Both the position numbers and the translations under genes were made by a program. From positions 1 to 58,038 of the forward strand of contig NZ_BATR01000133.1 in assembly GCF_000739655.1 (NCBI RefSeq): a stretch of DNA of 58,038 bases. The letters run 5' to 3'. This stretch comes from Verrucomicrobium sp. BvORR106. Lineage in GTDB: Bacteria; Verrucomicrobiota; Verrucomicrobiia; Verrucomicrobiales; Verrucomicrobiaceae. Shown in pieces: positions 42,770 to 58,038 of the stretch (its first letter is position 1; each line of letters begins with the position of its first letter). The notes under the pieces are model-generated. The model saw only the letters and a program-made list of their open reading frames with translations. It ran no database searches and was not told the origin of the DNA.

Positions 42770-43189
42770 ATGAAAAATCGTATCACCCTCATGCTTGTCG
42801 GTGCCCTCACCTTGGGCAGCCTCGCTTTCGCGGACATTCAGGCTCCTCCCGGGGCTAAGTGGAACTGGAGCCGCAAGCTCTCCCGCTCACTGGCGAACCT
42901 GGCTTACGGCGTGACGGAGTATCCCACGACCTGGAGCAAAGTTGAGCGTCAGGACGGCGTGAATGCAGCCGCCACGTCCATGGTTGTTGAAGGCACCTCC
43001 CGCACCTTGGTGCGCGTGGGCTATGGCCTCTTCGAACTGGTCACCTTCCCCTTCCCGGCCTACAAGGGCGGCTACAAGCCCCCGTACTACAAGGACGAGC
43101 GTTTCGACACCTGGTATGGCTATGAGGAATTCCCCCCTCAGCTCGGCTTCACTTCCCAGGCCCGCTACAGCCGTACGCAGAGCAACTAA
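42770..43189 (+). CDS. Exosortase-system-associated protein, TIGR04073 family
   Basis: A 139-residue secreted protein with a signal peptide (about 1-21, ending SLAFA). The mature start 'KLSRSLANLAYGVTEYPTTW' and the middle 'RVGYGLFELVTFPFP' match a small family found with PEP-CTERM/exosortase systems in Verrucomicrobiota. The role is unknown. The two PEP-CTERM proteins in the window (38311 and 55977) fit this context, but no exosortase gene (epsH/xrtA-like) is present here. A strong terminator follows, so it is monocistronic or the end of a short transcript. Confidence 0.82.
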   Translation: MKNRITLMLVGALTLGSLAFADIQAPPGAKWNWSRKLSRSLANLAYGVTEYPTTWSKVERQDGVNAAATSMVVEGTSRTLVRVGYGLFELVTFPFPAYKGGYKPPYYKDERFDTWYGYEEFPPQLGFTSQARYSRTQSN

Positions 43190-43215
43190 GCTGACGGTCT
43201 GAGTTTGATTTCATG

Positions 43216-43247
43216 AAAAAGGCGAACCGCAAGGTTCGCCTTTTTTT
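43216..43247 (+). terminator. Rho-independent terminator of the TIGR04073 gene
   Basis: AAAAAGGCGAACC (43216-43228), loop GCAA, GGTTCGCCTTTTT (43233-43245), with a T-run of seven (43241-43247). It starts 26 bases after the stop and is bidirectional in form, so it could also end the convergent L,D-transpeptidase transcript. Confidence 0.93.
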
Positions 43248-43308
43248 GTTGGAAGTTAAAGAGGGGCGAATGGATTACGAGAAACTCCTCCTGCTACACG
43301 ACGGGTCC

Positions 43309-43482
43309 CAAGGAGCGGCGGTTTGTGCTTCAAGCACAACCGCCGATGGTGACCAGAGGGATCCGGTGCACAACCGATGAATAACGGTCGAGCCCCCTGT
43401 TTTTGGAGGCATAGGGCGGACTGAACGATTGCCCGCTTCGCTTCCCATCGGCGGTTGTGCAAGCACAATCCGCCGCTCCTTG
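43309..43482. repeat. Palindromic repeat element, copy A (two inverted hairpin arms)
   Basis: About 174 bases between a terminator and the L,D-transpeptidase gene. The left arm is CAAGGAG followed by CGGCGG-T-TTGTGCTT and its complement AAGCACAACCGCCG (43316-43345), a hairpin of about 14 pairs. The right arm is CGGCGGTTGTGC-AAGCACAATCCGCCG (43449-43475) followed by CTCCTTG, the complement of the left outer end. The element as a whole therefore has inverted ends and each end is itself a hairpin. The same design, with the same ends, begins at 57880. The interior (43346-43448) is not coding. Confidence 0.88.
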
Positions 43483-43515
43483 TTCTAGAACACGGGAGAA
43501 ACAGCCCGCCACTCC

Positions 43516-44151
43516 TCAATCCTTCTTGTCCGGCGACTTCGCCAGGATCGTCACCGGCGTGCCGATCGTCGTGTTGGCAAAGAACTTCTGCGCCATGTAG
43601 CGGGGCACGCGGATGCAGCCGTGGGAGGCGGTCGCACCGGGGCGCGGAATTGGTCCCACGTGGAGACCCACGCCATCATTGGTCAGGCGCTGGAACATGG
43701 GCATGCGAGCTGGCGAAAATTGATGCCCTTCCGGCACCTCTTCCTTGCTCAAGTTGAAATCGCTATCCACCACCTTGCCGTCCACATCCAGGAGCTTGCC
43801 GTACAAGTTGGAGATCTTGTCCGGGGTCTTTTCGATGATCCGGAAATTGCCAGCAGGTGTGGGATGGGAAGGTTTCCCGGTGGCCACGTAGGTCCAGCCC
43901 ACCAGCTTCTTGCCGCGGTAGAACTCTGCCTTCTGGGTATCCAGATAGATCACGATGGACGCGTCCCCTTGCACACCGTCCCCCTCCCAGTGGTACATCA
44001 CAAACTTGGCAGGCTCTGCCGCAGGTTTCTGGTGCCGCTTGCCTGTCGCACAAGAGGACAATCCCAAAGCGACCGCCAATGCCAGCAGCGCACCGGTTTT
44101 CAGTGTCCAAGATGCAGCAATGGAGCGGAAAGACAGATTCAGTTTTCTCAT
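43516..44151 (-). CDS. L,D-transpeptidase (YkuD family) lipoprotein
   Basis: A 211-residue lipoprotein. A signal ends in a lipobox LSSC (Cys34). The YkuD domain spans about 65-205 and holds the catalytic 'HVGPIPRPGATASHGCIRVP' with His164, His177 and Cys179, the nucleophile. It forms 3-3 crosslinks in peptidoglycan, or links an outer-membrane protein to it. The start at 44151 gives the signal peptide; a frame from 44166 adds five residues. It is convergent with the TIGR04073 gene across the palindromic repeat. Confidence 0.93.
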   Translation of the reverse strand: MRKLNLSFRSIAASWTLKTGALLALAVALGLSSCATGKRHQKPAAEPAKFVMYHWEGDGVQGDASIVIYLDTQKAEFYRGKKLVGWTYVATGKPSHPTPAGNFRIIEKTPDKISNLYGKLLDVDGKVVDSDFNLSKEEVPEGHQFSPARMPMFQRLTNDGVGLHVGPIPRPGATASHGCIRVPRYMAQKFFANTTIGTPVTILAKSPDKKD

Positions 44152-44242
44152 GGGAGTTCGCCGCATCTATAAGCGAAGGCACCGGGCCTGACAAGCCCCA
44201 TGTGCCCTCCGATAGGGCCCTTCCGCCCGCCTGCTCCGACCG

Positions 44243-57879: not shown

Positions 57880-58038
57880 CAAGGAGCGGCGGTTTGTGCC
57901 TTAAGCACAACCGCCGTGGCGAGCGGAGCAGGCGATCGCCAACTTAAAAAAGCGGTGCATCAGGCCATTGGCGACCGTCACCCAAGTATGAGGCACGTCT
58001 CCCTCCGGCCACGATCGGCGGTTGTGCTTGAGGCACAA
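57880..58038. repeat. Palindromic repeat element, copy B, cut by the window edge
   Basis: The left arm CAAGGAGCGGCGGTTTGTGCC plus AAGCACAACCGCCG (57880-57916) has the same first 20 bases as copy A and folds the same way. At the far side CGGCGGTTGTGCTTGAGGCACAA (from about 58016) is the start of the inverted right arm, which runs off the window. The interior differs from copy A, but GGTGCA followed by a divergent stretch and CGGTC/CCGTC occurs in both near the centre, so the interior may be distantly related. Expected total length about 175-180 bases. Confidence 0.85.

Follow-up and report, generated by a model that had tools for sequence, protein, structure and literature searches.

The palindromic element at positions 43309-43482 of the window (the whole stretch analyzed, a 58,038-nucleotide contig of Verrucomicrobium sp. 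BvORR106) is best explained as a REPIN, which is a non-autonomous inverted pair of REP sequences whose dissemination depends in trans on a REP-associated tyrosine transposase (RAYT/TnpA-REP) of the HUH Y1 family. We give this reading a probability of roughly 0.85. Copies of the element are dispersed, they occur as head-outside pairs of near-fixed length, and their arms are far better conserved than the spacer. Moreover, a RAYT gene is located between the hairpins in a sister genome, copies are present in some genomes and absent from others, and pairs have decayed to solo REPs at orthologous sites. The new point about this family is the head of its REPs, which is CAAGG instead of GT[AG]G.

The element is composed of two inverted hairpins (REPs of 40 and 37 nt) that flank a 97-nt spacer. 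An inverted-repeat search recovered outer arms at 43309-43330 and 43461-43482 (22 nt, 95% complementary) and inner arms at 43334-43349 and 43445-43460 (16 nt, 100% complementary). The left arm alone (41 nt) folds into a hairpin at -15 kcal/mol (z = -5.4) and the right arm alone (38 nt) into a hairpin at -11.5 (z = -3.6), while the whole element of 174 nt folds at -58.4 (z = -9.4), with shuffled versions averaging -28.6. In each of these three cases, 0 of 200 shuffled sequences folded as well. The window element is real and is not a chance structure, and the first-pass annotation was correct to describe its ends as inverted copies and each arm as a hairpin in its own right.

The left REP (43309-43348, + strand) carries the head CAAGGAG, a 12-bp stem with one bulged T, and a 5-nt loop enlarged by a CAA insertion. 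It is identified by a model match of 60.8 bits, by alignment, by its fold, and by a REP at the same site in two related genomes: the sister Verrucomicrobium sp. BvORR034 (G001) and a genome of one 8.22-Mb contig that we take to be probably V. spinosum (G003). The spacer (43349-43445) is longer than those of the other 34 of 35 pairs. The right REP (43446-43482, - strand) is inverted with its head outside and has a short loop. It is identified by a model match of 63.4 bits and by its fold, and its counterpart at the orthologous G003 site was not found. The window copy is the longest of the 35 pairs, with the extra length made up of the CAA in the left loop and additional spacer bases. A second REPIN of the same family (57880-58038, + strand) is truncated within its right REP where the contig stops, an assembly break at the repeat, and goes unmentioned in the first-pass annotation of the element.

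The neighboring genes are convergent (42770-43189 on the + strand and 43516-44166 on the - strand), with the element starting 121 bp past the left gene and ending 35 bp before the right gene. This agrees with the original placement of the element between convergent genes. A hairpin outside the repeat (43216-43245, + strand), formed by a 13-bp inverted repeat with A and T runs and conserved in G003 and G001, looks like the terminator of the left gene, but a terminator consensus scan of 43100-43600 returned 0 sites.

The REP is abundant in the BvORR106 genome (G000, 8.7 Mb). A 37-position covariance model built from 30 copies in this genome gives at least 109 matches there, and BLAST gives 115. 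Among 60 fetched loci and the window, there are 35 inverted pairs with lengths of 159-172 bp, and 23 of these are exactly 161 bp. The first pairing script demanded that heads be outside; a stricter and independent pattern yielded 35 head-outside versus 0 head-inside neighbors within 260 bp. Mean pairwise identity across the 35 pairs is 94.7% and 94.6% for the arms versus 63.4% for the spacer. Thus, the family exhibits the traits by which REPINs are recognized: inverted REP pairs with a spacer of constant length, ends more conserved than the spacer, and many copies that are mostly intergenic (38 of 41 examined are between predicted genes). Association with a RAYT, a further trait, is observed in the sister genome G001 only, and what bears on movement itself is the presence of copies in some genomes and their absence from others.

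Among 30 aligned REPs, 29 open with CAAGGAG, although these were gathered with patterns containing AAGGAG and only the first C is independent of that choice. The 33 unpaired hits are solo REPs mixed with chance matches of a loose pattern. Covariation within the REP family was uninformative, and a stop-free frame through the element plus 100 bp on each side is present in 8 of the 35 copies. Related outer flanks of ∼60 bp are found in 14 of 35 copies, and outer ends (≤2 mismatches) were located to the left of 11 copies and to the right of 4, with both ends present in 3. At L058, L062, L067, L068, L070, L113, and other loci of this genome, the REPIN resides within a larger repeat of ∼280 bp whose outer ends, GTCAGGTTAAGA and TTTAACCTGAC, are likewise inverted. 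Separately, a head-stem-head palindrome of ∼40 bp at L105 (C125:61709-61747) has the form expected if the center of a REPIN were deleted, and a similar palindrome is present in G003 at C1:599.8 kb.

The first-pass annotation had proposed a REP/BIME-type or MITE-like element. The repeat is not limited to just two copies in the genome, and the many copies, their arrangement as inverted pairs of near-fixed length, and their enrichment in convergent intervals (see below) favor REP/BIME. Terminal inverted repeats and short dispersed copies are also what a conventional MITE of a DDE transposase would display. However, an exact target duplication of 2-10 bp was found at 0 of 35 copies, each end is itself a hairpin, and a Y1-type RAYT is located between such ends in G001. 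We therefore view a conventional MITE as extremely improbable.

The placement of the elements relative to genes was assessed with gene calls from a home-made gene finder, using the window and the same 40 loci as the background of intervals. Of 41 elements, 24 are in convergent intervals, 14 are in codirectional intervals, and 3 are inside a predicted ORF. Convergent intervals constitute 23 of 40 REP-bearing intervals versus 16 of 105 others (p = 1e-6), whereas divergent intervals constitute 0 of 40 versus 11 of 105 (p = 0.035). When the others are limited to those of at least 100 bp, the corresponding values are 9 of 36 for convergent (p = 0.005) and 7 of 36 for divergent (p = 0.004). Such a distribution is what selection against insertions close to promoters would produce.

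The same enrichment, together with the lack of divergent REP-bearing intervals and the retention of the left REP at the window site in three genomes, might indicate that the element is not mobile and is kept as a host feature such as a bidirectional terminator, an mRNA stabilizer, or a protein-binding site. This explanation is very unlikely. Avoidance of promoters would account for the placement on its own, and an Rfam search with the element produced 0 matches. Furthermore, the spacers diverge while the length of the pair stays, the presence of copies varies between sister genomes, and a RAYT resides among the same hairpins in G001.

This G001 gene (C35:10021-10659) encodes a RAYT-type protein of 213 aa and is surrounded by REPs in the REPIN orientation. 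An intact REP is located upstream and an inverted REP downstream, with REP starts ∼861 bp apart. The downstream REP has an intact stem and has lost its head (TTGTGGG instead of CAAGGAG). After another 173 bp comes a further inverted REP pair with intact heads. When a profile of 25 relatives of the protein was compared with solved structures, TnpA-REP (4er8) ranked first (E = 1.2e-8), with IS200/IS605-type transposases behind it; a phmmer search of the PDB with the single protein gave 0 matches. The protein has the residues expected of a RAYT: the HUH histidines H126 and H128, the catalytic tyrosine Y186, and, four positions after it, the asparagine N190, all of them unchanged in 25 of 25 sequences. 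The protein scores 69.9 bits on the NCBIfam model NF047646 (REP_Tyr_transpos), which is below the cut-off of 80, but this is nevertheless its best-matching family (E = 2e-19).

Matches to Y1 transposases number 18 in the BvORR106 genome, 15 in G001, and 39 in G003. Loci scanned for REPs include all of L009-L022 in BvORR106, 15 of 15 in G001, and 15 of 39 in G003. For the remaining G003 loci, coordinates were compared by eye with the listed REP places and the two nearest were fetched. One of these is a long RAYT-like gene of a different kind, with a single REP ∼450 bp downstream, and the second place checked (∼10 kb from a Y1 match) is a solo palindrome. The BvORR106 loci L009-L013 and L015-L022 are without a REP within ∼1.5 kb at ≤3 mismatches. 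None of the 18 matches in this genome is on the window contig, as had been claimed from the sequence of the window for transposases in general. A cognate RAYT was not found in the BvORR106 draft, where the nearest RAYTs are 41%-44% identical to that of G001. The RAYT-type Y1 gene between the same arms that was anticipated by the first-pass annotation exists in the sister genome, albeit with one head lost, and not in the genome that carries the window element. At C151:2749-4111 in BvORR106 (L020/L021), two similar long RAYT-like genes with open frames of 300 and 351 aa are arranged in tandem, and the first has a different C-terminal end.

The first candidate for the cognate enzyme was an IS200-type Y1 transposase of 148 aa on contig C27 of BvORR106. 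This gene has one REP on each side (C27:46790, - strand, and C27:47640, + strand), and its relative in G001 (91% identical) has a REP on one side. The candidate was set aside because its relatives are flanked by another repeat: A different repeat borders the gene on either side in 13 of 30 loci, of which 9 are outside the genus and without the CAAGG REP, and so the C27 gene is probably not the cognate enzyme. In addition, the REPs at C27 are in the opposite orientation and lie outside such other repeats. The protein scores 62.8 bits on the IS200 model (cut-off 55) versus 19.3 on the REP model (cut-off 80), and genes of this type occur in 28 of 57 genomes versus 3 for the REPIN. Movement of the pairs by this transposase is therefore unlikely. 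The repeats in question form a second family. In the region C27:45580-48921 (L014/L149), the IS200-type gene is flanked by a repeat in which small hairpins stand on either side of a GTAG-tagged one, and the 13 loci of its relatives carry related repeats composed of the palindrome GATGCCGGAGGCATC and a TAG-tagged hairpin.

Given that the BvORR106 draft is without a cognate RAYT, the window REPIN was most likely mobilized by an enzyme that is now lost or unassembled, leaving the element an orphan. A REP-flanked gene could be missing from the draft, since the end of the window contig falls within a REPIN. A REP/BIME-type element moved in trans, as initially proposed, is the best reading, and the RAYT gene between REPs of this family in G001 agrees with it.

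A BLAST search with a single complete copy detects the family only within the genus of the window, in 3 of 57 genomes. The REP covariance model gives at least 78 matches in G001 and at least 25 in G003, and 0 in G002 among the matches listed. At E = 0.001, this model has a match in 18 of 57 genomes, with a best value of 7e-8 outside the genus versus 5e-16 inside. Matches outside the genus number at least 29 in G006, 18 in G007, 21 in G046, 12 in G053, and 11 in G013. Both G006 and G007 hold RAYTs near that of G001 (58% over 133 residues, and 57%). We found no open-access account of extragenic palindromes in Verrucomicrobium or of REPINs in Verrucomicrobium spinosum, although an earlier account of the family may exist in further literature.

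The left REP is present at the window site in both G003 and G001, as is its five-base loop, with small differences in each. Further to the right, the sequences of these two genomes are different, and the G001 site is split over two contigs that each carry a REP. The left REP predates the split of the three Verrucomicrobium genomes, and thus the insertion in the window is old. At C63, BvORR106 carries a solo REP at a site with a complete REPIN in G001, the difference being a single missing block. This fits the published view, as given in the part of that paper used here, that singlets are remnants (PMC3116915). A clean empty site was not obtained when L002 and L006 were compared with the sister genomes: The L002 element is in BvORR106 only and the surrounding intergenic DNA differs as well, while for L006 the sisters yielded just one flank, which has no REP.

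REP heads are believed to direct cutting, and those of the systems studied to date are GTAG-like. No GT(A/G)G head is present at the 5′ foot of the Verrucomicrobium REPs. To judge from the portions of the literature drawn on here, published RAYT-adjacent REPs carry GT(A/G)G (PMC2817692; PMC6006769), CGTC is known as a tag of repeats (PMC3733652), and some subclasses have atypical feet, including CnGA in class 3 (PMC6006769). Of 30 RAYT loci, 15 have CAAGGNG with a hairpin on both sides of the gene. These 15 all belong to the 17 loci that are closest to the G001 gene, and the count among the other 13 is 0. Three control motifs are on both flanks in 0, 1, and 1 of 30 loci. GT[AG]G with a hairpin borders the gene on both sides in 6 of 30 loci, but as a four-letter motif without a control of its own length it is subject to more chance matches. 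These counts were made with a loosened hairpin rule and controls, as a stricter rule missed several flanks, including those of the G001 RAYT. CAAGGAG is also visible by eye at L250, L254, L258, and L262, which are outside the count.

A RAYT tree was made from 27 of the 30 loci (L252, L265, and L266 were dropped) and two BvORR106 RAYTs. All 14 CAAG rows are within one 20-row fork (97/93), and the CAAG labels need 4 changes versus 10.1 in shuffles. The four changes mean that these rows are clustered and do not form one clean clade. The stems of the REPs differ between RAYT lineages. With ≤2 mismatches allowed, one stem pattern occurs in multiple copies (6-38 sites) in 7 of the 10 genomes examined, and the three genomes without it are BvORR106 and two chosen as controls; reversed-pattern controls gave 0. 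Because the head is conserved among the closest RAYTs and the stems differ between lineages, the head tracks the RAYT group, whereas the stem tracks the lineage.

Several known systems resemble this family, as described in the parts of each publication considered here. The REPINs of Pseudomonas fluorescens SBW25 (Bertels and Rainey 2011, PMC3116915) are likewise inverted REP doublets with conserved ends, a fixed-length spacer, and a hairpin fold, and they are RAYT-associated with singlets that resemble remnants. Unlike these, the Verrucomicrobium family has a CAAGG head, a longer unit (161 bp), a host from another phylum, and no cognate RAYT in the host draft. Gammaproteobacterial units (Nunvar 2010, PMC2817692) also place a RAYT between inverted REPs whose stem varies with the RAYT, but their REPs are GT(A/G)G-headed. 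With E. coli TnpA-REP (PMC8266576; PMC6006769), the family shares an HUH Y1 protein, a bulged stem, and aligned W, Q, and R residues of the guide-reading region. The E. coli system has a GTAG guide and demonstrated biochemistry, whereas the CAAGG family is known from sequence alone. GTAG- and CGTC-tagged repeats (Di Nocera 2013, PMC3733652) are tagged stem-loops that in several families are mostly head-outside dimers, and GTAG repeats are present in the verrucomicrobium O. terrae. Neither tag fits the Verrucomicrobium family, and "caag" is absent from the main text of that paper.

By analogy with E. coli TnpA-REP, the RAYT would bind the single-stranded REP hairpin and read the head at its foot, its tyrosine would cut nearby, and the element would be joined elsewhere without target duplication. 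A role for the head in guiding cutting is likewise inferred from what is described of other systems (PMC8266576). The odds appear about even that a verrucomicrobial RAYT clade exchanged a GT[AG]G guide for CAAG while the stem kept changing lineage by lineage, with the recognition code made up of a clade-level part, the head, and a species-level part, the stem, and that BvORR106 contains an orphan REPIN population outliving its enzyme. A RAYT clade whose conserved head departs from GTAG and whose stems vary naturally supplies existing pairs with which the specificities of head and stem can be tested separately. Likewise, the three sister genomes, of which one has the matching enzyme and two apparently lack it, allow a REPIN population to be traced after enzyme loss.
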